Assembly: GCF_022827545.1 (NCBI RefSeq)
Contig: NZ_CP094669.1
Span: 2,508,001-2,572,000 of the forward strand
Reading direction: 5' to 3'
DNA: 64,000 bases
DNA from: Hymenobacter tibetensis
Lineage (GTDB): Bacteria > Bacteroidota > Bacteroidia > Cytophagales > Hymenobacteraceae
Below are positions 41,618 through 57,767 of the stretch, piece by piece (the stretch's first letter is position 1; every line of letters begins with the position of its first letter). Made by a program: the position numbers and the translations under genes. The notes beneath the pieces were generated by a model that did no database searches, was not told the DNA's origin, and saw only the letters and a list, made by a program, of their open reading frames with translations.

Positions 41618-42550
41618 ATGTATTGGCGTTTCTATTGTTCTCTGGTTCTTGTCGTGTTGGCTGCTGTTGGGGCGTGTGCGCAACCGTCTGCCTCTAGTGC
41701 TGATACCGTGCGTTTGCGCCGTCACTTGCTCACGCTTGTTGGCACCCCGCAACCCCGTAACTACCTGCACCCAGCCAGCCTCAACCAGGCCGGCGAGTAC
41801 ATCTTGCAACAATTGCAAGCGGCTGGTGCACGTACCGCTGAGCAGCCATATGAGGTAAAAGGCCAACTGTACCGCAACCTGATTGGGAGTTTCGGCCCCG
41901 AAGCCGGCCCCCGCCTCATTATTGGGGCGCATTATGATGTATGCGGCGAGCAGCCCGGCACCGACGATAACGGGAGTGGCGTAGCTGCTTTGTTGGAGCT
42001 GGCCCGCCTGTTAGGCCAGCAGCCAAGCCTGCCTTACCGAATTGATTTGGTGGCATACACGTTGGAAGAGCCTCCTTTTTTTCGGACTCCGCACATGGGT
42101 AGCTACGTTCACGCCCAATCATTGCATGCGGCGGGAGTGCCCGTACGAGGCATGATAGCGCTGGAAATGCTGGGCTATTACGATGACCGGAAAGGCAGCC
42201 AGCGCTATCCGTTCAGCCCATTAAAGCTGATTTTTGGTAGCCGGGGAAACTACGTGACCGTCGCGCAGAAATTTGGCAACGGGCGCTTCGGCCGGCAGTT
42301 TGCTCGGCGCTACCGGGCAGCGGCCGCACTGCCCGTAAAACGGTTCAAGGCACCTGCCTGGCTGCCTGGTATCGACTTCTCCGACCACCTCAACTATTGG
42401 CAGTTCAACTACTCGGCAGTGCTCCTCACCGACACCGCCTTCTACCGTAATCAGCACTACCATGAGCCCACTGATACGCTCGACCGGCTGGATATGCGCC
42501 GGTTGGGACTGTCGGTGGATGCTGTGTTGGCGGTGTTGCTCCATCCCTGA
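41618..42550 (+). CDS. M28 family zinc metallopeptidase, exported
   Basis: 310 residues. Signal peptide with a possible lipobox cysteine C20 (AAVGAC). Zinc ligands follow the M28 order: H105-x-D107 (GAHYD), bridging D117 (TDDNGSG), E150/E151 pair (TLEEP), a later Asp, and the final His in QHYHEPTDT. M28 enzymes are aminopeptidases or glutaminyl cyclases; the TDDNGSG and HEPTDT segments fit aminopeptidases. Location would be periplasm or surface lipoprotein. Next gene downstream is DUF2490. Confidence 0.88.
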   Translation: MYWRFYCSLVLVVLAAVGACAQPSASSADTVRLRRHLLTLVGTPQPRNYLHPASLNQAGEYILQQLQAAGARTAEQPYEVKGQLYRNLIGSFGPEAGPRLIIGAHYDVCGEQPGTDDNGSGVAALLELARLLGQQPSLPYRIDLVAYTLEEPPFFRTPHMGSYVHAQSLHAAGVPVRGMIALEMLGYYDDRKGSQRYPFSPLKLIFGSRGNYVTVAQKFGNGRFGRQFARRYRAAAALPVKRFKAPAWLPGIDFSDHLNYWQFNYSAVLLTDTAFYRNQHYHEPTDTLDRLDMRRLGLSVDAVLAVLLHP

Positions 42551-42637
42551 AGTAAGACGAAAGCCCAACTACAGGTCCGGAGTGGCGTATGGGAAGCCAA
42601 GCGCGCATCATTTGCTGCCGCTTCCTTCCCCGAGTTC

Positions 42638-43420
42638 ATGATAAAATTGCCGCTCGTAATTGGGCTTTATTTGCTAACTGCCACCGGATTTGGGCAAGCC
42701 CTGCCGCGCTTGCTTGACCATAATGCCCTGGGCTGGACGGTGTACTCCGGCGACCACCAAGTCAGTAAGAGGTGGACAATCCATACTGAATATCAGCTGC
42801 GGCGGGTGAAGCTTCTAGGCACGCAGCAGCAGCACCTAGCACGGCTAGGAGTAGGGCACAAGCTCACGGACCGGGTGACGGTAAGCGGAGGGTACACCTA
42901 CTTTCAAACGCACGAATACGGCCGCTATCCTACCGTAGTGGGCAAGCCCCAGCCCGAGCAGCGGCTCTATCAGGACGTAACGCTGGCAGATGAAGTAGGG
43001 CGCCTGCAACTCTCGCAACGCCTGCGCCTAGAACAACGCTGGCTGGGCCAACGAGCCGCTGAAGGCACCGGCAACGTGCAAGACTGGGAGTATCAGCACC
43101 GAATCCGGTACCAACTGGCGGGGAGCTTCCCGCTGCAAGGCCCCACCATCGACGACGGGGAATGGTACCTCAATGCCTTCGACGAGTTGTTTATCAGCTT
43201 CGGGCGCAATGTGGGCAACAACGTGTTCAACCAAAACCGGATTTCTGGTGGCCTGGGCTACCAGTTCAGCAGCAAAGCCAAGGTCGAACTCAACTACCTC
43301 AACCAAGTAACGCAACACGCCGAGCCGGACCCCGCCAGTGGACGGCCCGTGTTTGAAATCAATAACGGCTTCCGAGTGAACATCCTCTACGACCTAGATT
43401 TTACTACGAGAGAGGAATAG
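42638..43420 (+). CDS. DUF2490 outer-membrane protein
   Basis: 260 residues with a signal peptide (IGLYLLTATGFGQ) and about ten amphipathic beta-strands, including YQLRRVKLLGTQQQHLARLG, LSQRLRLEQRW and a last strand FRVNILYDLDF. This matches DUF2490, predicted outer-membrane barrels of unknown role in Bacteroidota. 87 bp after the M28 gene. Its 3' end overlaps the convergent unknown gene by 17 bp. Confidence 0.82.
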   Translation: MIKLPLVIGLYLLTATGFGQALPRLLDHNALGWTVYSGDHQVSKRWTIHTEYQLRRVKLLGTQQQHLARLGVGHKLTDRVTVSGGYTYFQTHEYGRYPTVVGKPQPEQRLYQDVTLADEVGRLQLSQRLRLEQRWLGQRAAEGTGNVQDWEYQHRIRYQLAGSFPLQGPTIDDGEWYLNAFDELFISFGRNVGNNVFNQNRISGGLGYQFSSKAKVELNYLNQVTQHAEPDPASGRPVFEINNGFRVNILYDLDFTTREE

Positions 43421-44009
43421 CGTGGGCCGGCAGCGTCCCCACCCAAACTCGATCCGTCTGGACCACGAAGAATTCTCGGCCTGTGTCGTTGGTGTAGGTG
43501 TGGTGCGGGCGACGTAGCATCCATGCTGGCCAGCCAGCAGGATAATCTTCTGGCTCGAACCAGTCACTCCAATAGCAAGCCTGCCATTCCAGTTGATCGG
43601 CTCCCGGCAACTCCCGGTACTTAGCTGGCAATAGGAAAGCCAAGTCGCATGCTGTAACTAGATGCGGGTACCGCTTGATCCTCTTTCCTACGGCAGCCAC
43701 TACTTGTGAGGAGTGCGCGAAGTCCCTTTCAAACAGCCAAATTGCTAGGTAGAACTTTTTGGGCTGCGCTATCAGCGCCTGATGCCATTGCCTGAACGTA
43801 GCCAGTAACATATGCAGGGCCTGCTGCCGCACGGCAACAGGAACAACAACGAAAGGGGTATGCCAAGGACCAAGTCCGAGCTTACGGTATGTATACTGCG
43901 TTCGGAGTAGTGCGTTGGTATTCAACTGCTTGATATAGAGACTTTCCTTTTCAAGTCGGCGCAATAGTCTTTTCGTACCCCATGGCTTCTTCATCAGAAG
44001 TAACTTCAT
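43404..44009 (-). CDS. Hypothetical protein
   Basis: 201 residues, not recognised. Basic N-terminal half (KKPWGTKRLLRRLEKE), Trp-rich C-terminal half (ACYWSDWFEPEDYPAGWPAWM). No signal peptide or membrane helix. Codon pattern resembles the GC-rich neighbours. It overlaps the end of the DUF2490 gene by 17 bp and is divergent from the InsA-like gene (86-bp AT-rich gap). A start at the second ATG (MKKPWG) is possible. Confidence 0.55.
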   Translation of the reverse strand: MKLLLMKKPWGTKRLLRRLEKESLYIKQLNTNALLRTQYTYRKLGLGPWHTPFVVVPVAVRQQALHMLLATFRQWHQALIAQPKKFYLAIWLFERDFAHSSQVVAAVGKRIKRYPHLVTACDLAFLLPAKYRELPGADQLEWQACYWSDWFEPEDYPAGWPAWMLRRPHHTYTNDTGREFFVVQTDRVWVGTLPAHAIPLS

Positions 44010-44025: not shown

Positions 44026-44033
44026 TATGTTTG
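44026..44033 (+). promoter_or_regulatory. -7 box (TATGTTTG) of the InsA-like gene
   Basis: Consensus TAnnTTTG 62 bp before the ATG in an AT-rich divergent region. Confidence 0.4.
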
Positions 44034-44073
44034 CTAACTTAGTATATATTTACTAATTACCTATAGTCTTAGT

Positions 44074-44095: not shown

Positions 44096-44518
44096 ATGTC
44101 ACAACTTACATGCCCAAAGTGCGAATCCAAGGAAGCTACCAAAAGTGGAGTGGTAGGCGGCAGACAACGCTATAAGTGCAAGAATTGTGGGTATCACTTC
44201 TCGGTAGCCAAGGCAGGCAAGGAGATTAATTCCTATTACGTCATCAAAGCACTACAGCTATACGTGGAAGGCGTAAGCTACCGTGAGATTGAGCGGTTGC
44301 TGGGGGTTAGCCACGTGAGCGTGATGAACTGGGTGAAAAAGTACGGCATGAAAGCTCCCCGCCAGACAGAATATCATCCAACGTATAAAATACTCAACCA
44401 GAAAGAGTTGACGGAGTATTTCCAGAATACAAACAACCTGAAAGGAGCCGGGCTAGTGGTGACTGAGTTGGGCGACAAATACATGATGATCCGGTGGGAA
44501 CGGTTTCGGCAAGGGTAG
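44096..44518 (+). CDS. InsA-like zinc-ribbon/HTH protein, stand-alone
   Basis: 140 residues. A zinc ribbon with C6, C9, C28 and C31 (CPKC...CKNC) is followed by a helix-turn-helix (about 61-82, SYREIERLLGVSHVSVMNWV) as in InsA of IS1-type elements. The C-terminal 45 residues are not transposase-like (GAGLVVTELGDKYMMIRWERF). No InsB/DDE gene, terminal repeat or target duplication is visible, so this is probably a transposase-derived DNA-binding regulator. It is directly upstream of the porin that opens the carboxylate locus. The alternative, a decayed IS remnant, is less likely given the intact frame. Confidence 0.7.
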   Translation: MSQLTCPKCESKEATKSGVVGGRQRYKCKNCGYHFSVAKAGKEINSYYVIKALQLYVEGVSYREIERLLGVSHVSVMNWVKKYGMKAPRQTEYHPTYKILNQKELTEYFQNTNNLKGAGLVVTELGDKYMMIRWERFRQG

Positions 44519-44668
44519 CAGCTATAGAGGTTAACAGAAGTATAGCAGGGGCGTGACATGTGGCGGAAGGTTTTGCTATTTGGTTGAGCTGAAAGGGGAG
44601 GATAGGAGTTGCCGCTCTTCCCTGACAGAGCTCCTCCGATTCCCACCGTACCACTTCCACCATCCTCT

Positions 44669-46234
44669 ATGCAAAACGCCCGTTACGCGCTGGCACTTAG
44701 TGCGCTGCTGACTACTGCCGGAGCTTCGGCTCAGGTAATAACACCCCCCACCGGTGAGGCGCCCCCGCCCGCTGCGCCAGCGCCGCCCCCCGCCACACCT
44801 ACTGCGGCCAAACCAGTGCCCTACGGACCGGGGATGAAAGTCAACCTCTCACCCGACGGGTCCAAGTACTTGCGTTTCTTGCTTTGGTCACAGATTTACA
44901 CGCGCTACAACGAGAACAACACCGGTACCCTGCGCGCGCCCAACAAGCCCAAAGACAGCCAGGTGGATTTCGGGATTCGCCGCTCACGCATGGTGATTCT
45001 GGCGCAGCTTAACCCACGCTTCTTAGTGTATACCCACTTGGGTATCAACAACCAAAATAACGTGAGTGGGGGCTTGAATGCCGCTACTGACGGCAAGAAG
45101 CCGCAGATCTTCATTCATGAAGCCGTAACAGAGTACAAGGTCAACAAGTACCTCAATTTGGGAGCGGGCCTGCACTACTACAACGGTATTTCACGCCTGA
45201 GCAGCGCCAGCACCACCAGCATGCTGGCCATGGACTTTCCGCTCACCAACTTCCCTACTATCGACGCCCTCGACCAATTTGCCCGCTACCTCGGCGTGTT
45301 TGCCAAGGGTCGCATCGGCAAGTTCGACTACCGCTTGTCGGTGAGCGACCCGTTTCTGACCAACCTGCCAACCAATGCGAACTATGTGGCGGGGGGCGTC
45401 CAAACTGGCAACCCGCTGGGTTTGGGTACCACAGTAGATGGCGTGAACACGGGTACCAATATTGCACAGTACAACCCGCAGAATACCGGCCATGTGTATC
45501 AAGGGTATTTCAATTACAACTTCTTAGAGCCAGAGGCTAATTTATTGCCATATTATCAGGGTACTTACCTAGGTACCAAACGAGTACTAAGTTTGGGAAC
45601 CGGCTTCATGTACAACAATGATGGCATGTACTCGCGGCCCACTAGTGACGCCCGGACGCTATCTAGCCTGACTCCGGCGGCTGGTAGTACTACCGACCTC
45701 TTCACGGCCGTGCCCACCAGCAAGCACGATATTAAGCTCTTTGGGGCCGATGTGTTTTACGATGTGCCCTTAGATACAGCTTCGCGGACGGCATTGACTT
45801 TCTATGGCGTCTATTATAGGTACGATTTCGGGCCGAACTACGTGCGCTACGTGGGCGGGGAGAACCCTGGCTATGGTGCAGCGGCCCTACGCGGCAACGC
45901 GGTGCCACAGTCGGGCACGGGCAACGCGCAGTATATAAATGCCGGGTTTCTGCTACCACAGAACACGCTGGGCCCGAAAGTACGGCTGCAGCCCTACGTG
46001 GCGTATCTGCACAGTAGCTACGAGGGCTTGCGCAAAAGCAATGGCGAGAGAGCCGGCGTGAACGTGTACGATGCCGGTGTGAATGTGCTGCTCGATGGGC
46101 ACAATGCCAAAGTCACCCTGAACTACCGCGCCCGTCCCGACTTCAGCGACCAAGCGCCTGTGCCGAATGGGGCGCTGATCAACAACGTGAAATACCGTCC
46201 GGAAATCACGCTGCAAACGCAGGTATTCTTGTAA
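44669..46234 (+). CDS. Outer-membrane porin, OprO/OprP-like family
   Basis: 521 residues from ATG 44669. Signal peptide (ALSALLTTAGASAQ), then a Pro/Ala-rich stretch (about 30-50), then a 16-strand-type barrel. RRSRMVILAQLNPRFLVYTHLGINN and FAKGRIGKFDYRLSV are typical of Bacteroidota porins of the phosphate-selective O/P family. Despite the family name, the substrate is not fixed. Its position before an MHS-type symporter suggests passage of small organic acids. 150 bp after the InsA-like gene and 118 bp before the MFS gene. Confidence 0.8.
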   Translation: MQNARYALALSALLTTAGASAQVITPPTGEAPPPAAPAPPPATPTAAKPVPYGPGMKVNLSPDGSKYLRFLLWSQIYTRYNENNTGTLRAPNKPKDSQVDFGIRRSRMVILAQLNPRFLVYTHLGINNQNNVSGGLNAATDGKKPQIFIHEAVTEYKVNKYLNLGAGLHYYNGISRLSSASTTSMLAMDFPLTNFPTIDALDQFARYLGVFAKGRIGKFDYRLSVSDPFLTNLPTNANYVAGGVQTGNPLGLGTTVDGVNTGTNIAQYNPQNTGHVYQGYFNYNFLEPEANLLPYYQGTYLGTKRVLSLGTGFMYNNDGMYSRPTSDARTLSSLTPAAGSTTDLFTAVPTSKHDIKLFGADVFYDVPLDTASRTALTFYGVYYRYDFGPNYVRYVGGENPGYGAAALRGNAVPQSGTGNAQYINAGFLLPQNTLGPKVRLQPYVAYLHSSYEGLRKSNGERAGVNVYDAGVNVLLDGHNAKVTLNYRARPDFSDQAPVPNGALINNVKYRPEITLQTQVFL

Positions 46235-46352
46235 GAGCCTGACAGGCAGCAAGCAACAGGAGCCACTACGCAGTGGCTGGTTCTGTGGCTGCCACTGCGC
46301 TGCTCTTCGCTCGTCTCTACCATTCCACTTTCAAAAACACCCATCATCCATC

Positions 46353-47876
46353 ATGAACCAGAACCTCCCTAATCGTGACTCAGGGGCCTATTCAGGGGCT
46401 GCCCCTCTAGCGGGCACCACCGACGACGCGGTAACGCACGACAACAACGCCGTTTCCACCAGCAAAATCTGGCAGGTAATTACCGCCTCGTCGGTGGGCA
46501 CTGTTATCGAGTGGTACGACTTCTACATCTTCGGTTCGCTGGCCGCTATTATCGGGCCGGTGCTGTTCGGTACTACGGGCAAAATCGAGGATACCATCTT
46601 GGGTACGCTGGCCGTGTTTGGTGCCGGTTTCATTGTGCGGCCGTTTGGGGCGGTGTTCTTCGGCCGCATCGGCGACCTGGTGGGCCGCAAGTACACGTTC
46701 CTGCTGACCCTGCTGATTATGGGCGGCGCTACGTTTGTAACCGGCCTGATTCCGAGTTACGACAAAATTGGAGTGGCGGCGCCCATCATCGTGACACTGC
46801 TGCGCTTGTTGCAAGGCTTGGCGCTGGGCGGCGAATACGGGGGCGCTACCACGTATGTGGCCGAGCACTCACCCGACAACAAGCGGGGCTACTACACCTC
46901 GTTTATTCAGATTACGGCTACGGCCGGTCTGTTTATAAGCGTACTGGTTATCATCGTTACGCGTAAGAGCCTCGGCGAAGAAGCCTTCAAAGAGTGGGGC
47001 TGGCGGATTCCGTTTCTACTGTCGGGGGCCTTGGTAATTGCCTCGTACTATATCCGGCGCAAGCTACACGAGTCGCCGCTGTTCGCTAAGGCTAAAGCCG
47101 AAGGGAAGACCAGCACGAGCCCACTGCGGGAGTCGTTTGTGAACCCCGTAAACCGCCGGTTGGTGTTGATTTCGCTGTTCGGCGCTACTATGGGCCAGGG
47201 GGTAGTATGGTACACGGGGCAGTTCTACGCGTACTCGTTCATGCAGAACTCGCTGAAGCTTGACCTTGTGGATGCCAGTATTGTGCTTTGCGTTGCGCTG
47301 CTGCTCGCTACGCCGTTCTTCGTGTACTTCGGTAGCCTCTCCGACCGGATTGGCCGCAAGAAAATCATCATGATGGGCCTGCTGTGTGGTGCGCTCTTCA
47401 CGATTCCAATCTTCTACGGCCTCAAAGCGTTTGCTGGTCCCCTGACGGAAGTAACCGCGGCCACTGTGGATGCCACCGGCAAAGCCGTGCCTGCCGTGAT
47501 GAAAGCCCTTTCGCCAAGCCTAGTACCCATGACCGCGCTGGTGTTCTGCCTGGTGCTGTTCGTGACCATGGCGTACGGCCCCATTGCCGCTTATTTGGTG
47601 GAGCTGTTCCCAACCAAAGTGCGCTACACCTCGCTTTCGTTGCCGTACCACATCGGCAACGGCGTTTTCGGGGGCTTCGTGCCGTTCATTGCCACGGCCC
47701 TCACGCTGGCTGCTGCTGCGCAACCCGAAGGCACTCTGCTTAAAACCTACAGCAGCTTTGCTGGCCTGCTCTACCCAGTTATCATTGCCCTGATTTGCTG
47801 GTTCATTGGCACGGCCCTGATGAAGGATGTGCGCAACGTACGGTTGATGGAAGAAGGCTCCGGCGACGTTCGGTAG
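46353..47876 (+). CDS. MFS transporter, metabolite:H+ symporter (MHS) type
   Basis: 507 residues, 12 helices. The first helix carries TVIEWYDFYIFGS, the MHS hallmark; MFS motif A follows (GRIGDLVGRKY) with its repeat SDRIGRKK. GGEYGGATTYVAEHSP is the conserved helix 5 region of ProP/KgtP/ShiA-like symporters. A 45-residue hydrophilic insert between helices 8 and 9 makes it longer than the usual about 440. It probably imports an organic acid by proton symport. In the run porin, MFS, small protein, SLC5-kinase, RR, prpE, acs. Confidence 0.9.
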   Translation: MNQNLPNRDSGAYSGAAPLAGTTDDAVTHDNNAVSTSKIWQVITASSVGTVIEWYDFYIFGSLAAIIGPVLFGTTGKIEDTILGTLAVFGAGFIVRPFGAVFFGRIGDLVGRKYTFLLTLLIMGGATFVTGLIPSYDKIGVAAPIIVTLLRLLQGLALGGEYGGATTYVAEHSPDNKRGYYTSFIQITATAGLFISVLVIIVTRKSLGEEAFKEWGWRIPFLLSGALVIASYYIRRKLHESPLFAKAKAEGKTSTSPLRESFVNPVNRRLVLISLFGATMGQGVVWYTGQFYAYSFMQNSLKLDLVDASIVLCVALLLATPFFVYFGSLSDRIGRKKIIMMGLLCGALFTIPIFYGLKAFAGPLTEVTAATVDATGKAVPAVMKALSPSLVPMTALVFCLVLFVTMAYGPIAAYLVELFPTKVRYTSLSLPYHIGNGVFGGFVPFIATALTLAAAAQPEGTLLKTYSSFAGLLYPVIIALICWFIGTALMKDVRNVRLMEEGSGDVR

Positions 47877-47929
47877 AACGTCCCATCAAGCGGTACTCGT
47901 AGCCAGCTTGCGCCCGCAGCCCTTCTTGA

Positions 47930-47961
47930 AAAGTCCGTCGGGCCCTGGTTCGGCGGACTTT
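47930..47961 (+). terminator. Hairpin between MFS and small-protein genes
   Basis: 11-bp stem (AAAGTCCG...CGGACTTT) with one G-U pair, followed by TCTGTTGCTT. Weak T run, so partial termination or attenuation within the locus. Confidence 0.5.
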
Positions 47962-48060
47962 CTGTTGCTTGGTGCTGGTTGGCAACCGATTGGCTTCGGT
48001 TGGTGTCTCGCTACGAAAGCCGTCTACAATCAACCACCTCCACCTATCAACTCCTACTCT

Positions 48061-48279
48061 ATGCTACCCATGTCTTCGCAGGAGCAGACCGAGCAGCGCC
48101 GCGGACAGCGGCTGTTGTTTGTGAGTTTGCTGTTTGGGGTGCTGCTAAACTTCCCACTGCTGGCAGTTTTCAACCACAACGGTCGGGTGGGGGGCGTGCC
48201 TGTGCTCTACCTCTACGTGCTGCTGGCCTGGCTAACGTTGGTGTTGCTCACGGCCTGGCTGGTGAAGAAGGTCAATTAA
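48061..48279 (+). CDS. Small 2-TM protein preceding the SLC5-kinase, YjcH-like by position
   Basis: 72 residues from ATG 48061 (ATG 48070 also possible). Short charged N-tail, helix 1 (LLFVSLLFGVLLNFPLLAVF), a loop with GRVGGVPV, helix 2 (LYVLLAWLTLVLLTAWLV) and a basic tail KKVN. Size, topology and location resemble the small partner subunits (DUF485/DUF4212 type) that precede SLC5 acetate permeases, as yjcH precedes actP. Sequence homology is not certain. The stop codon lies in the left end of the 48273-48390 repeat. Confidence 0.65.
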   Translation: MLPMSSQEQTEQRRGQRLLFVSLLFGVLLNFPLLAVFNHNGRVGGVPVLYLYVLLAWLTLVLLTAWLVKKVN

Positions 48280-48390
48280 AAATGAAGAAATGAAGAAGTG
48301 AAAATAGGTTGTTCTGCCTGCCAGAAACCGGAGCCAGAAGGCCTTTAATTCTTCCCCAGTTCTTACTTTATAATTCCTAATTTTTAATTG
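48273..48390. repeat. 118-bp intergenic element with 11-bp terminal inverted repeats
   Basis: Ends CAATTAAAAAT (48273-48283) and ATTTTTAATTG (48380-48390) are exact inverted repeats. The left arm continues with an 8-bp period (AAATGAAG), the right arm with a 7-bp period (TAATTCC, TAATTTT, TAATTGG). It fills the gap between the small-protein stop and the kinase start. Related to the elements at 35708 and 51265. Confidence 0.7.
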
Positions 48391-48395
48391 GATCC

Positions 48396-51173
48396 ATGTC
48401 CAAGCTGCTGGTTATCGGCTTTTCGTTTGGCTACTTAGCGTTGCTCTTCGGGGTGGCGTATGCGGCGGAGCGTCGGGCGGGTTCGGCACGGAGCAGCCTG
48501 GTGAACAACCCGTATGTGTATGCCCTGAGCATGGCCGTGTACTGCACCGCCTGGACCTATTACGGGTCGGTGGGACGGGCGGCGCACTTCGGGTTGGAGT
48601 TTGTGGGTATCTACCTGGGCCCTACGCTGATGGCTCCAGCCGCGTGGTTGGTGCTGCGCAAAATCATCCGCATCTGCCGGTTGCAGCGCCTCACCTCCAT
48701 TGCCGACTTTATATCGGCCCGCTACGGCAAGAGTGCTTCTTTGGGGGCCTTGGCCACGGTGGTCTGCGTGCTGGGTATTGTGCCCTACATCTCACTGCAA
48801 ATCAAGGCCATTGCCACGTCCTTCGACATCATTACCCGCGGGCCCGATGCGTTGCAGTTGCCCTTGGAAGGTACCGCAGCCAGCTCGGCGCTCTACACCA
48901 CGGTGGCGCTGGCGTTCTTCACCATCATCTTCGGGGTGCGCTCCATCGAAGCTACCGAGCGGCACGAAGGCATGGTGCTGGCTGTGGCGTTGGAAAGCCT
49001 GGTGAAGCTAGTGGCGTTTCTGGCGGCTGGCATCTTCGTGACTTTCGGGCTGTTTGATGACTTTTCGGATGTGTTCACGCAAGCCGCCGCCGTGCCCGAC
49101 CTGAGCCGGCTGTTCACGTTGGATGGGGCCGGTACCAGTAGTGGGCAGTGGTTTACGCTGCTGTTGCTCAGTATGGCTGCTATTCTGGTATTGCCGCGGC
49201 AGTTTCAGGTATCAGTGGTCGAGAACGTCAACGAAGACCACTTGCGCAAAGCCATGTGGCTGTTTCCGCTCTACCTCATCATTATCAACTTGTTTGTGCT
49301 GCCTCTGGCCTTTGGCGGGCGGTTGCTAGCGGGGACGGGGTTCGATGCTGATACGTTTGTGTTAGCGCTACCCATGCAGGCGGGGCATCCGTGGCTGGCT
49401 TTGTTTATCTACATCGGGGGCCTGTCCGCGGCTTCGTCCATGATTATCGTGGAAACCATTGCTTTGAGCGTGATGATGAGCAACCACCTGCTGATGCCGC
49501 TGCTCGTTCGGATTCCGGCTGCGCAATCAGAAGGCACGAGCTGGTTTGCTTACCTGGGCAAGGTGGCCCTGAACAGCCGGCGGTTGGCGGTGGTGCTGGT
49601 GCTGTTGCTCGCGTACGGCTACTACATTGGCGTGGGGCACTTGCTGCCGCTAGTTAATATCGGGTTGGTGTCGTTTGCAGCGGTGGCGCAGTTTGTGCCT
49701 GTGGTGTTAGGCGGGCTCTATTGGAAGGGCGGCAACTGGCAGGGCGCTACGGCGGGCCTGTTGGCGGGGTTTGTGGTCTGGTTTTTCACGTTGGTGGTGC
49801 CTACTATGGTGGGGCCGCACATGCTGAGCGAGGCGCTGCTCTCCGAGGGCTTATTCGGCTGGAATGGGTTGCGCCCGTTTGCGTTGTTCGGGCTCGAAGG
49901 GCTCGATTACTTGTCGCACGGACTGTTTTGGAGCTGGTTTTTCAATATCGGCTTCTACGTGGGGGTTTCCCTGCTGCGGGGGCCTTCGGCGTTGGAGCAG
50001 CGCCAGGCCGATATTTTCGTGGGTGTGTTTCATTACCGCAACGTGTTTGAAGGGCCCGCTAGCTGGCAAGGTGCTGCCCAACTGCCCGACGTGCGCGCCC
50101 TGCTAAACGGCTTCTTGGGCAAGCGCCGCGCTTCGCAGGCCCTGCGCACTTTTGCCGAACGGTTTCCTGATGCCCACCCCGCCGACGATGTTGCACCGCC
50201 TCAGGCCGACCCGCGGCTACTGGCGTACTCTGAAAAGCTACTGGCTGGTAGCATTGGTCCGGCCTCGGCGCGGCTGCTGCTGGCTTCGTCCATTGGGGTA
50301 GAAGACATTAGCTTCGACAACGTGGTGGGCATCCTGCGCGAAAGCCAGCAGCTGCTGGAAGTGAACCGCCAGCTGCAAAAGCAGCAGCGACAACTCCAGC
50401 GCCTCACCGACGAGCTGCGCGCCGCCTACGACCAGCTGCAGGAGCTAGACCACCACAAAGATGAATTTCTGGCCACCGTCACGCACGAGCTGCGCACTCC
50501 GCTGACCAGTATCCGGGCGCTTTCTGAAATCCTGACCGACAATCCCGACCTGGAAGAAGAAGAGCGCCAGCGTTTCCTGCTCACCATCACGCGCGAGTCG
50601 GAACGCCTGAGCCGGCTCATCACGCTGGTACTGGACCTAGAGAAGTACGAATCCGGCAAAGCCACCCTCGACCGCACACCCCTCGACCCCGTGGAAGTGC
50701 TCAACGACGCCATCGAGTCGGTGGGGCAGCTGCTGCGCGACAAGCAGATTCAGCTGGATGTGGCGGCGCCCCCCGGCCTGCCCCAGCTCTCCGCCGACCG
50801 CGACCGGCTGATGCAAGTGCTGGTGAATCTGTTGAGCAACGCCATCAAATCGTGCCGGGCCGATGGCAGCGGCCGTATTCGGGTGGCGGCCGAGCTGCCC
50901 CCAGCCACCGCGGGTGCCCCCGCCACGCTCCGCCTGGTGGTGCAAGACAACGGCAAGGGCATCGAAGCGGCTTTTCACACCCTCATTTTCGACAAGTTTT
51001 TCCAAGCCCAAAACCAAACCATGCGCAAACCCGAAGGCTCGGGGCTGGGCCTGGCCATCACCAAGAAAATAGTGGAGCTGCACGCCGGCCGCATTTGGGT
51101 GGAAAGCCAACCCGAGCAAGGAGCCCGGTTTTCGGTGGAGCTTCCCGTTGTTGCAGTAGCACTTGATGAGTAG
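48396..51173 (+). CDS. SLC5 transporter-STAC-histidine kinase fusion (CbrA/CrbS-like)
   Basis: 925 residues. Residues 1 to about 530 are a sodium:solute symporter fold (VYALSMAVYCTAWTYYGSVG, TSIADFISARYGKS, IVPYISLQIKAIA). Then a STAC domain (about 590-640: LLAYSEKLLAGSIGPASARLL), a coiled coil, HisKA with H697 (THELRTPL) and HATPase (QDNGKGI, GSGLGLAITKK). No PAS domain. Such proteins sense or carry amino acids or acetate; CrbS controls acs in Vibrio and Pseudomonas. Here a single-domain RR, prpE and acs follow directly, supporting carboxylate sensing. The gap before it is filled by a repeat element. Confidence 0.93.
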   Translation: MSKLLVIGFSFGYLALLFGVAYAAERRAGSARSSLVNNPYVYALSMAVYCTAWTYYGSVGRAAHFGLEFVGIYLGPTLMAPAAWLVLRKIIRICRLQRLTSIADFISARYGKSASLGALATVVCVLGIVPYISLQIKAIATSFDIITRGPDALQLPLEGTAASSALYTTVALAFFTIIFGVRSIEATERHEGMVLAVALESLVKLVAFLAAGIFVTFGLFDDFSDVFTQAAAVPDLSRLFTLDGAGTSSGQWFTLLLLSMAAILVLPRQFQVSVVENVNEDHLRKAMWLFPLYLIIINLFVLPLAFGGRLLAGTGFDADTFVLALPMQAGHPWLALFIYIGGLSAASSMIIVETIALSVMMSNHLLMPLLVRIPAAQSEGTSWFAYLGKVALNSRRLAVVLVLLLAYGYYIGVGHLLPLVNIGLVSFAAVAQFVPVVLGGLYWKGGNWQGATAGLLAGFVVWFFTLVVPTMVGPHMLSEALLSEGLFGWNGLRPFALFGLEGLDYLSHGLFWSWFFNIGFYVGVSLLRGPSALEQRQADIFVGVFHYRNVFEGPASWQGAAQLPDVRALLNGFLGKRRASQALRTFAERFPDAHPADDVAPPQADPRLLAYSEKLLAGSIGPASARLLLASSIGVEDISFDNVVGILRESQQLLEVNRQLQKQQRQLQRLTDELRAAYDQLQELDHHKDEFLATVTHELRTPLTSIRALSEILTDNPDLEEEERQRFLLTITRESERLSRLITLVLDLEKYESGKATLDRTPLDPVEVLNDAIESVGQLLRDKQIQLDVAAPPGLPQLSADRDRLMQVLVNLLSNAIKSCRADGSGRIRVAAELPPATAGAPATLRLVVQDNGKGIEAAFHTLIFDKFFQAQNQTMRKPEGSGLGLAITKKIVELHAGRIWVESQPEQGARFSVELPVVAVALDE

Positions 51174-51264
51174 CAACCAAGAACTGTCCGCCGTGCATTG
51201 TATAAAGCCATTGTATTCGAGTGTCCGCATGGCTCTACTGTCATCTGTAACCCTAAAAACTGAT

Positions 51265-51297
51265 TCAATTATTAATTCCTACTTCCTAATTACTAAT
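51265..51297 (+). repeat. Solo array of 7-bp-period TAATTnn repeats
   Basis: TAATTCC, TACTTCC, TAATTAC and TAATTGA follow in register just before the response regulator start. It matches the right arm of the two larger elements; no left arm is visible. Confidence 0.6.
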
Positions 51298-51303
51298 TGA
51301 AAG

Positions 51304-51696
51304 ATGCCGCACATATTGATAGTGGACGATGAGCCTAACATTGTGATGTCGCTCGAATTTTTGATGCGCAAGAACGGCTATGCCGTAAGCATTGCCCGCA
51401 ACGGTACCGAGGCCCTCGAAGCCGTCGACCGCGCCCCCCTTGACATCGTGCTGCTCGATATCATGATGCCCGATGTGGACGGCTACCAGGTGTGCCGCTA
51501 CATCAAAGCCCGGCCAGACCGGGCGGGTACCAAAATCATCTTCCTCTCCGCCAAAACCAAAGACGTTGATGTGCAGAAAGGCTACGAAGCCGGCGCCGAC
51601 CTCTACATTCCCAAGCCCTTCAGCACCCGCCAGCTCATGAGTAAAGTGCGGGAGCTACTCGCCGCGCCGCACCCCCAGACAAACCTTGCCCCGTAG
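51304..51696 (+). CDS. Single-domain response regulator (CheY-like)
   Basis: 130 residues, a receiver domain only: acidic pair D8/D9, phospho-acceptor D52 (VLLDIMMPD), the Ser of FLSAKT and the Lys of IPKPFS. The C-terminal tail is about 10 residues with no DNA-binding or enzymatic domain. It is 130 bp after the SLC5-kinase and before prpE, so it is almost certainly the kinase partner. Known CrbR/CbrB partners have an output domain, which is missing here, so the signal must pass to another protein. Confidence 0.93.
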   Translation: MPHILIVDDEPNIVMSLEFLMRKNGYAVSIARNGTEALEAVDRAPLDIVLLDIMMPDVDGYQVCRYIKARPDRAGTKIIFLSAKTKDVDVQKGYEAGADLYIPKPFSTRQLMSKVRELLAAPHPQTNLAP

Positions 51697-51796
51697 CCTA
51701 GTTGGTGCTTGTCTGCTCGTAGTAGGCAAGTTGGCCTGCAATAGCCGCAGGAAGCAGATGCCTAACAAGAAGTACGTTCCCGTTCCCTTTTGTCTC

Positions 51797-53740
51797 ATGA
51801 AATCCACCCCCTCGTATGCAGCGGCGCACGGCGCTAGTTTAGCTGACCCCTCAGCCTTCTGGGTGGAGCAGGCGCGGCAGCTCGCGTGGTTTCAGCCACC
51901 GCCGGAGCCGGTGTTGAGCCAGGAGGAAGGCACGGGCTTCACCCGCTGGTTTCGGGGCGGGCAGCTCAACACGGCGTACCTCTGCCTCGACTACCACGTG
52001 GCCCACGGGCGCGCCGACCAGCTCGCCCTCATCTACGATTCGCCGGTGACGGCCACCGTGCGGCAGTACACTTACCGCGCGCTGCTCGACCTGACGGCTC
52101 GGTTTGCGGGCGGGCTGCGCAACCTGGGCGTACACAAAGGCGACCGGGTACTTATTTACATGCCCAACATGCCGGAAGCAGTGGTGGCCATGTTGGCCTG
52201 CGCCCGACTGGGGGCGGTGCATTCGGTGGTGTTCGGTGGCTTTGCGCCCCAAGAACTAGCTATGCGAATTGATGATGCGCAGCCCCGCGCTATTATTTGC
52301 GCCTCGGGCGGGCTTGAATTCAATAAGGTCATTCCGTACAAGCCGCTCGTGGATACCGCTATTGCGCAAGCAACGCATCAGCCTGCACACGTGGTAGTGC
52401 TGCAGCGCGAAGACGTTGTGCAGGCCGAGTTGCAACCCCACCGCGACGTGGACTTCAGGGAAGTGCTGCAGGCCGCGCCCGTGCCGGCCGTACCCGTCGA
52501 GGCCACCGATCCGCTCTACATCCTCTACACCTCCGGCACCACTGGCAAGCCGAAAGGCGTGGTGCGCGACACCGGTGGCCACGCCGTGGCGCTGAAGTAC
52601 AGCATGGGTGCCGTGTATGGCTTGCAGCCTGGCGAAACCATGTTCAGCGCCTCGGATATTGGGTGGGCCGTGGGCCACAGCTACATTGTGTACGGGCCGT
52701 TGCTGCAAGGGTGCACATCGGTGCTGTTTGAAGGCAAACCCGTGCGCACCCCCGATGCCGGGACGTTCTGGCGCCTGCTGGCTGAGTATAAAGTTCAGGT
52801 GATGTTCACGGCGCCCACTGCCATTCGGGCCATCAAGAAAGAAGACCCGGAAGGCCAGCTCGCCAGCCAGTATGATTTAAGCCACCTGCGTTACCTGTTT
52901 CTGGCCGGCGAGCGGTGCGACCCTGCCACTTACGAATGGGCCGGCCACGTGCTGGGCGTGCCCGTTGTCGACCATTGGTGGCAAACGGAATCGGGGTGGC
53001 CTATGCTGGCTACCTCGGTGGGGCTGTCTGATGTACCGCCGCCGTGCGCCGGCTCGGCGGGCCAGCCGGTGCCAGGCTACCACGTGCAGATTCTCGACGA
53101 AGGTGGCCAGCCAGTGCCCGCCAACACCACCGGACTAGTGGCCGTGAAACTACCGTTGCCGCCCGGCTGCCTGCCCACGCTCTGGCAAGACGATGCGCGT
53201 TTCCAGCGTAGCTACCTCGACACGTTCCCGGGCTACTACCTCTCCGGCGACGGAGGCTACCAAGACGCCCACGGCTACTTCTTTATTATGGGCCGCGTTG
53301 ATGACGTTATCAACGTAGCCGGCCACCGCCTAAGCACTGGCCAGATGGAAGAGCTGCTAGCAGCCCACCCAGCCGTAGCCGAATGTGTGGTGCTGGGCAT
53401 TGCGTGCCCGTTGCGCGGCCAACGCCCGGTGGGCTTGGTTGTGCTCAAAGACGGTCAGACTATATCCGAAGCGCAAGTAGAGCAGGAGTTGGTGGGCCTT
53501 ATCCGCGAAAAGATTGGGGCCGTTGCCAGCTTCCGCCAAGCCGCAGTTGTAAAGCGTTTACCTAAAACGCGTTCCGGTAAAATATTGCGCAAGACCATGC
53601 GCCAGTTAGCCGACGGGGAAGATTTTACCGTTCCTTCCACCATCGATGACCCACTGATCCTGGCAGAAATCAGGGCGGTGCTGCAACGGCGGCAGGTAGG
53701 CCACGCCTTCGAAAGCCTGGCCGGAAACCTCGCCCCCTGA
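51797..53740 (+). CDS. prpE: Propionyl-CoA synthetase-type AMP-forming ligase
   Basis: 647 residues from ATG 51797; the frame extends further upstream over the RR end but that part is not conserved. Adenylate-forming motif YTSGTTGKPKG, DHWWQTESGWPM, and the catalytic lysine in PKTRSGKILRKTMRQ. VVRDTGGHAVALKYSM, the GERCD segment and DIGWAVGHSY match PrpE/ACSS3 rather than Acs. It activates propionate (perhaps also butyrate or acetate) to acyl-CoA. Followed by acs after 87 bp. Confidence 0.9.
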   Translation: MKSTPSYAAAHGASLADPSAFWVEQARQLAWFQPPPEPVLSQEEGTGFTRWFRGGQLNTAYLCLDYHVAHGRADQLALIYDSPVTATVRQYTYRALLDLTARFAGGLRNLGVHKGDRVLIYMPNMPEAVVAMLACARLGAVHSVVFGGFAPQELAMRIDDAQPRAIICASGGLEFNKVIPYKPLVDTAIAQATHQPAHVVVLQREDVVQAELQPHRDVDFREVLQAAPVPAVPVEATDPLYILYTSGTTGKPKGVVRDTGGHAVALKYSMGAVYGLQPGETMFSASDIGWAVGHSYIVYGPLLQGCTSVLFEGKPVRTPDAGTFWRLLAEYKVQVMFTAPTAIRAIKKEDPEGQLASQYDLSHLRYLFLAGERCDPATYEWAGHVLGVPVVDHWWQTESGWPMLATSVGLSDVPPPCAGSAGQPVPGYHVQILDEGGQPVPANTTGLVAVKLPLPPGCLPTLWQDDARFQRSYLDTFPGYYLSGDGGYQDAHGYFFIMGRVDDVINVAGHRLSTGQMEELLAAHPAVAECVVLGIACPLRGQRPVGLVVLKDGQTISEAQVEQELVGLIREKIGAVASFRQAAVVKRLPKTRSGKILRKTMRQLADGEDFTVPSTIDDPLILAEIRAVLQRRQVGHAFESLAGNLAP

Positions 53741-53827
53741 TGCCTGCTCCATGCACGGGGCCGCAAGGTTCCCGGCAGAACAATAACTTGTTGACTACTT
53801 CTCCCACTTTACAATTTCACCACTTCC

Positions 53828-55753
53828 ATGCCCGACGTACCCACTAAACATGCCCGCATCCGCACGCTCGAAGAGTACCACGATGCGTACAAGCGTAGCA
53901 TCGAGAACCCCGAGCAATTCTGGTCTGAGGTAGCGGAGCCCTTCACCTGGCGCCGCAAATGGGACAAGGTCCTCGACTCTGATATGGCCGCCGGCAAGAA
54001 CGAGTGGTTCAGTGGTGCCCGCCTCAACATCACCGAGAATTGCCTGGACCGGCACTTGGCGGCGCGCGGCAACAAGCTGGCCATCATCTACGAGCCCAAC
54101 GACACCAAAACCCGTCACCTGCGCCTAACCTACCGGGAACTGCACCAGGAAGTATGCAAGTTCGCTAACGTGCTGCACAACAACGGCGTGGAGAAAGGTG
54201 ACCGGGTCTGCCTCTACATGCCCATGATTCCGCAGCTGGCCATTGCCGTATTGGCCTGCGCCCGTATCGGAGCCGTGCATTCGGTGGTTTTTGCGGGCTT
54301 CTCAGCCACCGCCATTGCCGACCGGGTGAACGATGCGCAAGCCACGGTGGTGCTGACCGCCGACGGCCTGAACCGCGGAGCCAAGCAGATACCGGTGAAG
54401 CGCGTTGTGGACGAGGCACTGGAAAACTGCCCTTCCGTGCGCCGCGTGATTGTGGTCGAGCACCTGGGCTGGCCCGTGCAAATGAAGGAAGGGCGCGACG
54501 TATGGTACCACGAGGAAGCCGAAGACGTAGCCAAAACCTGCCCAGCCGAGGAAATGGACGCCGAAGATCCGCTCTTCATCCTATACACTTCCGGCAGCAC
54601 CGGCAAACCCAAAGGCGTGGTGCACAGCACCGCTGGCTACATGGTCTGGACCGATTACACGTTCCGCAACACGTTTCAGGTCGAGGAAAACGATATTTAT
54701 TGGTGCACCGCCGACATTGGATGGGTGACGGGCCACTCATATTTGCTGTACGGCCCACTGTTGGCGGGCGCTACCACGCTCATGTTCGAGGGTATTCCTA
54801 CGTACCCCGATGCCGGCCGCTTCTGGGAGGTGATTGACAAGCACTCGGTCAGTATCTTCTACACCGCGCCCACGGCCATTCGCAGCCTGATGGCCGCCCC
54901 GCTCGACAACGTGCTCAGCTATTCGCTGGATTCGTTGCGCGTGTTGGGGTCGGTAGGAGAGCCCATCAACGAAGAAGCCTGGTACTGGTACCACCAGCAC
55001 GTGGGCAAGGAGCGTTGCCCCATCGTGGATACGTGGTGGCAAACCGAAACCGCTGGTATCATGATTTCGGCACTGGCGGGCATCACCCCAAGCGTACCGG
55101 CCCGCGCGGGCTTGCCGCTGCCTGGCGTACTGCCGGTGCTGCTTACGCAGGAAGGCAAAGAAATAGAAGGCAACGGCGAAGAAGGCTACTTGGCTATCAA
55201 AAACAGCTGGCCTGGCATTATCCGAACCACCTACGGCGACCATGAGCGCGCCCGCCAAACGTACTTCGCTCCGTATCCGGGCTACTACTTCACCGGCGAC
55301 GGGGCCCGCCGCGACGAAGAAGGCCTCTACCGCATCATCGGCCGCGTTGACGACGTGATAAACGTAAGCGGCCACCGGTTCGGCACGGCCGAAATCGAGA
55401 ATGCCATCAACCAAAACGCCAACGTGGTGGAATCGGCAGTGGTCGGCTACCCGCACGACGTGAAGGGGCAAGGCATCTACGCCTACGTTATCTGCCGCGA
55501 GGGGGCCTGCGACAAGGATGCCGACAAGGCGCACATCGAAGCCAGCATCATCGAAACCATTGTGGCGGAAATCGGCAAAATTGCCAAGCCCGATAAGATT
55601 CAGATTGTGTCGGGCTTGCCCAAAACCCGCTCCGGCAAAATCATGCGGCGCATCCTGCGTAAAGTAGCCGAGGGAGAAACCTCCAACCTCGGCGATACCA
55701 CCACCTTACTTGATCCGGGAGTGGTCGATGAGATTATCGGCGGGCGGAAGTAG
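53828..55753 (+). CDS. acs: Acetyl-CoA synthetase (AMP-forming)
   Basis: 641 residues. N-terminal FWSEVAEPFTWRRKWDKVLD, YTSGSTGKPKGVVHSTAGY, DTWWQTETAGIM and the lysine in PKTRSGKIMRRILRK, the site regulated by acetylation in other Acs enzymes. It converts acetate, CoA and ATP to acetyl-CoA. With prpE and the SLC5-kinase it forms a short-chain acid activation module. Followed by a 15-bp stem hairpin. Confidence 0.96.
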   Translation: MPDVPTKHARIRTLEEYHDAYKRSIENPEQFWSEVAEPFTWRRKWDKVLDSDMAAGKNEWFSGARLNITENCLDRHLAARGNKLAIIYEPNDTKTRHLRLTYRELHQEVCKFANVLHNNGVEKGDRVCLYMPMIPQLAIAVLACARIGAVHSVVFAGFSATAIADRVNDAQATVVLTADGLNRGAKQIPVKRVVDEALENCPSVRRVIVVEHLGWPVQMKEGRDVWYHEEAEDVAKTCPAEEMDAEDPLFILYTSGSTGKPKGVVHSTAGYMVWTDYTFRNTFQVEENDIYWCTADIGWVTGHSYLLYGPLLAGATTLMFEGIPTYPDAGRFWEVIDKHSVSIFYTAPTAIRSLMAAPLDNVLSYSLDSLRVLGSVGEPINEEAWYWYHQHVGKERCPIVDTWWQTETAGIMISALAGITPSVPARAGLPLPGVLPVLLTQEGKEIEGNGEEGYLAIKNSWPGIIRTTYGDHERARQTYFAPYPGYYFTGDGARRDEEGLYRIIGRVDDVINVSGHRFGTAEIENAINQNANVVESAVVGYPHDVKGQGIYAYVICREGACDKDADKAHIEASIIETIVAEIGKIAKPDKIQIVSGLPKTRSGKIMRRILRKVAEGETSNLGDTTTLLDPGVVDEIIGGRK

Positions 55754-55814: not shown

Positions 55815-55911
55815 GTGCTTTAGCAGAACACAGCCCGTTGGTTTCAGGTTGAAAACCCGGCGGCTCGTGCGTAGTTGTGAGCGTTGCAGCACGGCTTCCG
55901 CTTCGCGCCGT

Positions 55912-55919
55912 TACCTTCG
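55912..55919 (+). promoter_or_regulatory. Possible -7 box (TACCTTCG) of cobTSC
   Basis: One base off TAnnTTTG, 16 bp before the cobT ATG, in the context TACCTTCGCGCC seen at other promoters here. Confidence 0.35.
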
Positions 55920-55935
55920 CGCCAAAATCCACCGT

Positions 55936-56991
55936 ATGCCCAACTTCTACATCCAACCGCTCGACCAGAAGCTAGCGGCGGCCATCCAACTGAAACTAGA
56001 CAGCAAAACCAAGCCAGTGGGGGCCCTTGGTAGTTTGGAAACCCTGGCCGGTCACGTAGCCCTCATCCAGCAAACCCTCACGCCGCAGCTCCGCAGCCCG
56101 CACGTGCTGGTATTCGCCGCCGACCATGGCATTGCGGCCGAAGGCGTGAGCAAGTATCCGCAGGAGGTGACCTACCAAATGGTGCTTAACTTTCTAAGTG
56201 GCGGAGCGGCCATCAACGTGTTTTGCCGGCAGCAAGGCATAGCGTTGAAAATAGTGGACGCCGGCGTGAAAGGCAGCTTCACAGAGTTTCCGGCCGTCAT
56301 CAACCAAAAGATAGCGGAAGGCACCCGCAACTTTCTGCACGAGCCAGCCATGAGTATAACGCAGTGCGAGCAGGCGTTGGCCGCCGGGGCCAAGCTGGCG
56401 CGCGAGGTGGCGGCTACGGGGTGCAACGTGCTGGGCTTCGGCGAAATGGGCATTGCCAACACGTCGGCCGCTACCTTGCTCATGCACCACCTAACGAGCC
56501 TGCCCCTAACCGAATGCCTCGGGCGTGGCACCGGCCTCGATGACGACCAACTCACCCACAAGGCGGCCATTCTCACCGCTGCCGCGCAACAGCACACCGC
56601 CACAAGCCCACTGGAAATATTGGCCGCGTTTGGAGGCTTTGAAATCGTGCAGATGGCCGGAGCCATGCTAGCCGCAGCGGAGCAGGGGCTCATTCTGCTG
56701 ATTGACGGGTTTATTGCTACGGCGGCCTTGCTGGCGGCTACCGCACTACACCCTGCTGTGCGCGAGTACTGCGTGTTCTGCCATCAATCGGAAGAAACGG
56801 GGCACCAGCGGATGCTAACGTACTTGCAAGCCTGGCCGCTGCTGAACTTGAATTTGCGGTTGGGCGAAGGCACGGGCTGCGCATTGGCGTACCCATTGCT
56901 GGTGGCTGCCGTCAGTTTTCTAAATGAAATGGCCTCATTTGAAAGCGCCGGGGTAAGCCAAAGCACCACACAAACTCCAGTTACGGCATGA
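55936..56991 (+). CDS. cobT: Nicotinate-nucleotide--dimethylbenzimidazole phosphoribosyltransferase
   Basis: 351 residues from ATG 55936 (upstream extension rejected). KPVGALGSLETLAGHVALIQQT, FAADHGIAAEGVSKYPQEVT, GFGEMGIANTSAA and the catalytic-Glu segment RLGEGTGCALA are CobT hallmarks. It makes alpha-ribazole phosphate, the activated lower ligand of cobalamin. First of a coupled three-gene operon (ATGA overlap with cobS). No corrin-ring genes in the window, so the operon may serve cobinamide salvage or final assembly. Confidence 0.95.
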   Translation: MPNFYIQPLDQKLAAAIQLKLDSKTKPVGALGSLETLAGHVALIQQTLTPQLRSPHVLVFAADHGIAAEGVSKYPQEVTYQMVLNFLSGGAAINVFCRQQGIALKIVDAGVKGSFTEFPAVINQKIAEGTRNFLHEPAMSITQCEQALAAGAKLAREVAATGCNVLGFGEMGIANTSAATLLMHHLTSLPLTECLGRGTGLDDDQLTHKAAILTAAAQQHTATSPLEILAAFGGFEIVQMAGAMLAAAEQGLILLIDGFIATAALLAATALHPAVREYCVFCHQSEETGHQRMLTYLQAWPLLNLNLRLGEGTGCALAYPLLVAAVSFLNEMASFESAGVSQSTTQTPVTA

Positions 56992-57767
56992 TGCGTCGGC
57001 AAATCGAGCTGTTCTTCACAGCTCTCATGTTTTACACGCGCATTCCCTGCCCCAGCTGGATAGGGCACTCCGAAGAAAAGCTCAACAAATCCACTGTGTA
57101 TTTTCCGGTGGTGGGGTGGATAGTGGGGGGCGGGGCGGCGGCTGTTTACTGGGGGCTGCAGCTGCTTTTTCCGCCGGATGTAGCTTTGCTGCTGAGCATG
57201 GTGGCCGGTATTCTGCTCACGGGGGCGTTCCACGAAGACGGCTTTGCCGACGTGTGCGACGGATTCGGGGGCGGCTGGACTAAGCTGCGCATCCTGGAAA
57301 TCATGAAGGATAGCCGTTTGGGTACGTATGGCGTAACGGGACTGGGGCTGATGCTGGCGTTGAAATTTCTGGCGCTCCGCAGCATGGCGCCTGGTGCGGT
57401 TGTGCCCGTGCTGCTAGTGGCGCACGCGCTAAGTAGAACCACGGCGCTGTCCTTTATTTACACCCACGAATACGCCCGCGAAAACGAAGACAGCAAGGCC
57501 AAGCCCATTGCCAAGAAGCTAAGCGCTTCGGATTTCGGGGTTGGCTTGCTGCTTGGCTTGTTGCCATTGCTGGTGTATGCTGCTTGGTTGCGCAACGGCT
57601 GGTTGCTACTGGTGCTATTGCCGCTGTGGCTAGTGAAAACCTATCTGGCCCGCTACTTCACGCGCTGGATTGGGGGCTACACCGGCGACTGCCTAGGGGC
57701 CACCCAACAAGTGGCAGAGGTACTTATCTATCTGTTTTTCTGCTCTCGCTTATGGACTTCTATCTGA
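56988..57767 (+). CDS. cobS: Adenosylcobinamide-GDP ribazoletransferase (cobalamin synthase)
   Basis: 259 residues, about six membrane helices. FYTRIPCP near the N-terminus, GAFHEDGFADVCDGFGGG with the acidic cluster, the KDSRLGTYGVTGL motif and GGYTGDCLGATQQVAE at the end define CobS. It joins adenosylcobinamide-GDP and alpha-ribazole phosphate at the inner membrane. Overlaps cobT by 4 bp and cobC by 16 bp. Confidence 0.95.
   Translation: MMRRQIELFFTALMFYTRIPCPSWIGHSEEKLNKSTVYFPVVGWIVGGGAAAVYWGLQLLFPPDVALLLSMVAGILLTGAFHEDGFADVCDGFGGGWTKLRILEIMKDSRLGTYGVTGLGLMLALKFLALRSMAPGAVVPVLLVAHALSRTTALSFIYTHEYARENEDSKAKPIAKKLSASDFGVGLLLGLLPLLVYAAWLRNGWLLLVLLPLWLVKTYLARYFTRWIGGYTGDCLGATQQVAEVLIYLFFCSRLWTSI

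Follow-up and report, generated by a model that had tools for sequence, protein, structure and literature searches.

How can a response regulator that consists of a receiver domain alone control the genes that lie beside it? This question is raised by a locus of Hymenobacter tibetensis, found at 44096..55753 of a window of 64,000 nucleotides (assembly GCF_022827545.1, contig NZ_CP094669.1, positions 2,508,001 to 2,572,000); all coordinates and strands given below are positions in this window. An original prediction had described the locus as a collinear row of genes for an InsA-like protein, a porin, an MHS-family symporter, a protein with two transmembrane (2-TM) segments, a histidine kinase with SLC5 and STAC parts, a receiver-only response regulator, PrpE and the acetyl-CoA synthetase Acs. 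All of these genes were found at the predicted place and on the predicted strand, and domain checks agree with their names, the porin label being weak. Judging from sequence, we consider it an evenly balanced proposition that this carboxylate locus is controlled by a response regulator whose two halves are separate proteins, in which the signal passes from the kinase to the receiver and from the receiver to the InsA-like protein as DNA-binder. In such a system, the SLC5-STAC kinase, assisted by a small subunit resembling CbrX of Pseudomonas, would sense the acid and phosphorylate the stand-alone receiver. The receiver would then contact the C-terminal part of the InsA-like protein, and this contact would alter the action of that protein at a tandem RCTAA-N5-TATA operator situated before the InsA-like gene and before porin/transporter genes.

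The regulator of the window is a receiver and nothing else, as had been predicted: a Pfam scan of its 130 amino acids gave a single Response_reg domain and no output domain. Wherever the receiver lies beside the InsA-like gene it stands alone, with 92-139 residues (142 of 142 loci), and it is therefore not a truncation; the output-domain scan covered the window receiver and two relatives from other classes, the others being judged by length. The protein carries the acidic pair D8 and D9, the phospho-Asp D52, S82 at the Ser/Thr position and the lysine K104, and D52 is invariant in all 142 receivers. The genome of H. tibetensis has 79 receiver-domain matches, several of them in short frames, so that a stand-alone receiver is not rare in itself; the conserved feature is its place behind this kinase.

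The order of the genes is conserved across Hymenobacteraceae, and the collinear locus is conserved across the class Bacteroidia. In all 40 family loci that were fetched, the InsA-like gene, the kinase, the receiver and Acs are collinear and the InsA-like gene is at the head; the porin is present in 39 of these loci. Within a family set of 204 genomes, 135 have the InsA-like orthologue, 122 the kinase and 121 both, and the sole kinase-bearing genome without the orthologue (G481) is 82% complete. A phylum sample of 296 genomes gave the kinase in 32, an InsA-like match (E value of 1e-50 or better) in 23 and both in 21. Every kinase genome of the same class in this sample (21 of 21) has the InsA-like gene on the same strand, 3.9-4.9 kb away from start to start; in G382, a contig end truncates the kinase. 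At least 578 stretches that encode an InsA-like relative were returned by a scan of species genomes, and 80 of them were kept as named loci, from Hymenobacter, Spirosoma, Runella, Arcicella, Siphonobacter, Emticicia, Flavobacteriales and others, some being cut by contig ends. The kinase was found in 73 of the 80.

The leading reading of the InsA-like protein, based on its domains, is that it is a domesticated N-terminus of an IS1-type transposase and the proposed DNA-binding output of the system. It has 140 amino acids and shares with IS1 InsA and with IS1-IS1595 proteins a zinc ribbon followed by a helix-turn-helix (HTH) motif (NF050000, 39 bits against a cut-off of 28); HTH_23 matched in 39 of 39 relatives at an E value of 0.01. 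Databases label it as IS1 family transposase or as IS1/IS1595 zinc-binding protein, and the gene could be the leftover of a transposase, carried along with the locus, an idea to which the NCBI name IS1 family transposase of several copies lends some colour. We regard this as very improbable. Unlike IS1 InsA, the protein is a class-wide conserved, single-copy product of a fixed locus with its own upstream motif. The NF033558 match ends at position 120 of 199 (81.5 bits against a cut-off of 100), and the protein has no full catalytic domain, the DDE catalytic part of an IS1 transposase being absent. One full-length copy is found in the H. tibetensis genome, where the other match has 36 bits and lies in a frame of 412 codons. 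Each of the 135 family genomes has a single match at an E value of 1e-40 or better, and orthologues score at least 172 bits against at most 87.5 bits for the remaining matches.

The candidate operator consists of TTGCTAA-N5-TATA ahead of the InsA-like start and a second copy, RCTAA-N5-TATA, 19 bp further on. In 56 of 69 loci, the 130 nucleotides before the InsA-like start contain such a pair, compared with 1 of 13,600 Markov controls, and there is one more occurrence elsewhere across those 69 loci. The 6.33 Mb genome, searched with up to two mismatches, has one site, the one in the window, and none for a backward control pattern. Among 28 genomes searched at 0-1 mismatch, the site was found in 15 of 19 that have the InsA-like gene, each time directly upstream of it, and in one of nine that lack the gene (G110, with one mismatch); the four genomes that have the gene without the site are exactly the receiver-less ones. 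The motif also occurs elsewhere in 15 of the 80 named loci, 14 times upstream of the porin and once as a weak reverse match (L165). It stands before the porin where the InsA-like gene and the porin are split, or in Runella and its kin (L056, L057, L058, L063, L095), and even in L207, where the two genes are 9 kb apart, the motif is still found before the porin. Twelve of the 80 loci have no site above the score limit; variant or partial copies can be seen by eye upstream.

The evidence that bears most directly on a contact between the receiver and the InsA-like protein comes from loci that have lost parts of the system. Among 159 loci that carry the InsA-like gene, kinase and receiver accompany it in 132, the receiver only in 10 and neither in 8. 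Nine others, three of them carrying the kinase, were excluded because the stretch ends before the presence of the receiver can be judged. The named loci overlap with those known by handle only, so that the 150 counted loci correspond to 136 distinct ones; L190 and L200 are one record, and the 10 kinase-less loci are thus 9 distinct ones. The losses are nested: the kinase goes first, the receiver next, and the InsA-like gene is retained. The 14 family genomes that have the InsA-like gene without the kinase were all read, and the receiver is kept in 6 and gone in 8. After loss of the kinase, D9, S82 or K104 of the receiver is broken in 5 of 10 loci (5 of 9 distinct), compared with none of the 132 loci that bear the kinase, and this decay is seen in three lineages (Emticicia-like, L114 and L203). 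After loss of the receiver, it is the C-terminal part of the InsA-like protein that changes. Residues 91-138, whose divergence was measured as the excess over what the DNA-binding part predicts, have diverged in 8 of 8 receiver-less loci (z of -2.1 to -4.8, ranks 2-9 of 136 distinct loci), and they are normal in the 9 distinct loci that keep the receiver without the kinase (z of -0.9 to 1.3). Counted over distinct loci, 96 of 119 full loci have the canonical motif ahead of the InsA-like gene, as do 8 of the 9 kinase-less and 1 of the 8 receiver-less ones; several receiver-less loci carry a variant with six spacer bases, as seen by eye. Content of porin and transporter genes fails to explain the split in C-terminal divergence (18 loci), since L111 (InsA-MHS-receiver-Acs) is normal and L202 (InsA-MHS-Acs) has diverged. 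Read by eye, the Acs tree has receiver-less loci at three separate points: six form one set (99/95), L098 stands next to the full locus L047 (100/95), and L201 falls within the set of 25 rows that includes the window. The order of the losses and the decay that follows each of them are what a contact between the receiver and the InsA-like protein would be expected to leave, and with some three losses of the receiver and several of the kinase to go by, we infer such a contact on evolutionary grounds.

These losses also bear on a different explanation, in which the InsA-like protein regulates its own gene locally, as a repressor or an activator at the motif, independently of the kinase, while the receiver acts elsewhere, for example as a phosphate sink or on the transporter, so that the two are mere neighbours. 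That the InsA-like gene remains with Acs in the eight loci without kinase and receiver agrees with it, as do the kinase-receiver pairs that occur without an InsA-like gene in other classes. Simple autoregulation would leave it unclear why the InsA-like C-terminus and the canonical motif survive the loss of the kinase alone and not that of the receiver, and we judge this explanation unlikely, though one to be taken seriously.

The kinase places the locus among known SLC5-type sensors. Its N-terminus is an SLC5 domain with 13 transmembrane segments that matches chain 10ed_A with an E value of 9e-75; entry 10ED is named in a paper on CbrA (PMC13022988). The core comprises HisKA and HATPase_c, both above the Pfam cut-off, and the phospho-acceptor H697 is invariant in 25 sequences. 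No PAS domain was found in the kinase, either by a Pfam scan or by a genome-wide search with PAS_9. After the last transmembrane segment, where the STAC four-helix bundle of two hairpins is expected, the structural model has helices 563-574, 576-589, 606-620 and 622-632. The sequence profile of this putative STAC part matched no STAC structure; from the model, a STAC part is plausible. Long helices follow at 640-715, and the modelled core matches HK853. Of 71 kinase loci, from within the class and beyond it, 70 have a 2-TM open reading frame (ORF) ahead of the kinase. The scan took frames of 45-140 codons with two or three hydrophobic segments that end within a few hundred bases before the kinase, and these were separated from the ends of MHS genes by eye; the hydropathy scan missed L043, whose twin locus L167 has a tblastn match. 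The peptide has no sequence match to any chain of the Protein Data Bank (PDB), and it resembles CbrX in place and topology only. In four cases, L117 (G114), G488, L206 (G447) and L198 (G417), the kinase is interrupted by a stop or fragmented, or the C-terminal frame of the InsA-like gene is changed.

Like the CrbS/CrbR (MxtR/ErdR) acetate switch of Vibrio and Pseudomonas, the locus ties an SLC5-type histidine kinase to acs and acetate transport; CrbS/CrbR control acs, whereas here adjacency to acs is what is seen. The DHp domain of CrbS follows a coiled coil, the S-helix (PMC5715377), to which the helices at 640-715 may correspond. As a hybrid kinase, CrbS carries a receiver at its C-terminus, and it acts through CrbR. 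The present kinase ends after HATPase_c without such a receiver, the receiver has its own gene, and the linked regulator is too short in all 142 loci to bear a CrbR-type DNA-binding domain, so that receiver and proposed DNA-binder are separate proteins. With CbrX-CbrA/CbrB of Pseudomonas, the locus shares a gene for a 2-TM peptide directly ahead of an SLC5 histidine kinase. CbrX, of about 58 amino acids and two helices, is encoded directly upstream of CbrA; a cryo-EM map has it bound to the SLC5 domain of CbrA, and it is dispensable for growth on histidine (PMC13022988). Lysine K204 of the present kinase, invariant in 25 sequences, is the counterpart of K196 of CbrA in the alignment. A sigma-54 activator such as CbrB and a PAS domain such as that of CbrA (PMC13022988, PMC7918813) were not seen at this locus. 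Single-domain response regulators such as RR468, paired with HK853 according to PDB titles, are likewise stand-alone receivers, but the receiver studied here is tied to a linked, predicted DNA-binding protein and to one locus. On the leading reading, the locus represents a variant SLC5/STAC two-component system whose output is split and uses a domesticated transposase N-terminus.

The hybrid kinases suggest a further alternative: the receiver could be the detached counterpart of the C-terminal receiver of CrbS/RpuS and tune the kinase only, with an unlinked DNA-binding regulator in charge of transcription. Both SLC5/STAC kinases of S. fredii are hybrids (PMC9100948), which fits this proposal. 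We find it rather improbable. Among nine proteins scanned in and beside the window locus, the InsA-like protein alone has an HTH, a scan that covered the window and not the loci of relatives, and a tuning role would leave unexplained why the InsA-like C-terminus is coupled to the receiver.

Several observations weigh against the split regulator. The receiver of CrbS is not needed for acsA transcription in V. cholerae (PMC5436829), which favours a tuning receiver, and the many response regulators among the 79 receiver matches of the genome make an unlinked DNA-binding regulator possible. One z value lies below those of the receiver-less loci, that of L206, in which the InsA-like frame is broken in its C-terminal part within an otherwise full locus; this is either a contrary fact or a sequencing error. 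The label count given by the tool for the Acs tree forces no more than one receiver loss, and p-values for the association overstate it, because one clade holds six of the eight receiver-less loci and the operator changed there too. When two mismatches were allowed in the 28 genomes, 13 scattered sites were added, against 23 for the backward control; these sites are thus noise, and the motif is specific at 0-1 mismatch only. In 22 of 28 loci, the MHS gene is followed by a GC-rich stem of 9 or more pairs. This conserved hairpin is terminator-like, a possible terminator or processing site, and it makes one single transcript doubtful. It may separate the motif from the kinase-receiver-acs part, placing the two parts on different transcripts as simple autoregulation by the InsA-like protein would allow. 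In that case, the motif may control chiefly the InsA-like gene and those for porin and transporter, and kinase, receiver and acs would be transcribed separately or by read-through. Outside the class, the 11 kinase genomes of the phylum sample lack the InsA-like orthologue, and in 10 of the 11 other-class kinase loci without it a stand-alone receiver is nevertheless adjacent (L107 has none). Receiver and InsA-like protein are therefore separable, and another partner would act there. In L099-L102, L104, L106 and L109, the receiver is followed by a protein of 315-380 amino acids beside Acs, or by one of 717-719 amino acids. One of each was scanned: the shorter (L101) has PAS and kinase-like regions, as in a degenerate kinase, and the longer (L104) a kinase-like stretch and a DnaQ-type exonuclease. 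These proteins may be alternative outputs of the same receiver.

The original prediction that the signal acts through protein contact or a third partner, with the InsA-like protein as one candidate, thus stands in part: linkage, motif, nested losses and C-terminal decay speak for it within the class, and the separable receivers of other classes speak against a general pairing. The fuller claim, that acetate sensing was rebuilt across the class Bacteroidia around a split regulator with an IS1-transposase-derived DNA-binder and a single genomic operator, we hold at slightly less than an even chance.

Table 1 Features of the locus in the window.
Feature	Position	Strand	Remarks
Tandem DNA motif GCTAA-N5-TATA-N5-ACTAA-N5-TATA	44033..44065	+	Proposed operator
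InsA-like protein	44096..44518	+	Zinc ribbon ~1-38, HTH 46-82, C-terminal beta-alpha-beta-beta part 93-136
Porin-like outer membrane protein	44669..46234	+	Weak NCBIfam porin match (NF040900, 76 bits against 150); position conserved
MHS-family metabolite/H+ symporter	46353..47876	+	TIGR00883 345 bits, below cut-off (443)
Terminator-like hairpin, 14 pairs, behind MHS gene	47930..47961	+	
CbrX-like 2-TM peptide, 72 aa, start ATG 48061	48061..48279	+	Hydropathy scan
SLC5-(STAC)-histidine kinase, 925 aa	48396..51173	+	
Receiver-only response regulator, 130 aa	51304..51696	+	PF00072 106 bits, no output domain
PrpE-like acyl-CoA ligase	51797..53740	+	PRK10524 730 bits, below cut-off (955)
Acetyl-CoA synthetase Acs	53828..55753	+	TIGR02188 934 bits, above cut-off

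The function of the locus is inferred to be the uptake, sensing and activation of carboxylates of the acetate/propionate type, the substrate being deduced from Acs, the PrpE-like ligase and relatives in which a DUF4212 and SSS pair is used. Acs passes an equivalog cut-off; the ligase is named PrpE-like only, since its score falls short of the cut-off. The ATG of the ligase given in Table 1 is near the start of homology, and the listed ORF starts at TTG 51686. The symporter is an MHS-type member of the MFS, and a Pfam scan of the porin-like protein gave no match. In part of the loci, the MHS transporter is replaced by a DUF4212 small subunit and an SSS symporter (L192:11910-13896 and similar cases), a pair found beside the CbrX-like peptide. 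L058, L200 and L207 have an extra MFS-like gene between the InsA-like gene and the porin, 26-28% identical to the MHS protein. Behind Acs, at 55849-57767, lie cobalamin genes (DBI_PRT/CobT-like and CobS), which are also present in L039 and L043; a link to B12-dependent use of propionyl-CoA is possible. The genes upstream, for an M28 peptidase and two uncharacterised ORFs (41618-44009), recur in some of the Hymenobacter loci, and a TPR histidine kinase is encoded nearby on the opposite strand (39179-41263, -).

The locus further suggests that small subunits of the CbrX type belong to SLC5 sensor kinases in general. If the split regulator is real, it would show how a receiver without an output domain can control transcription, and it would give a function to a conserved, unstudied family that is often annotated as transposase. 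A DNA-binding protein of a mobile element would then have been recruited to be the output arm of a two-component system, and a signalling switch would have been assembled from separate pieces.

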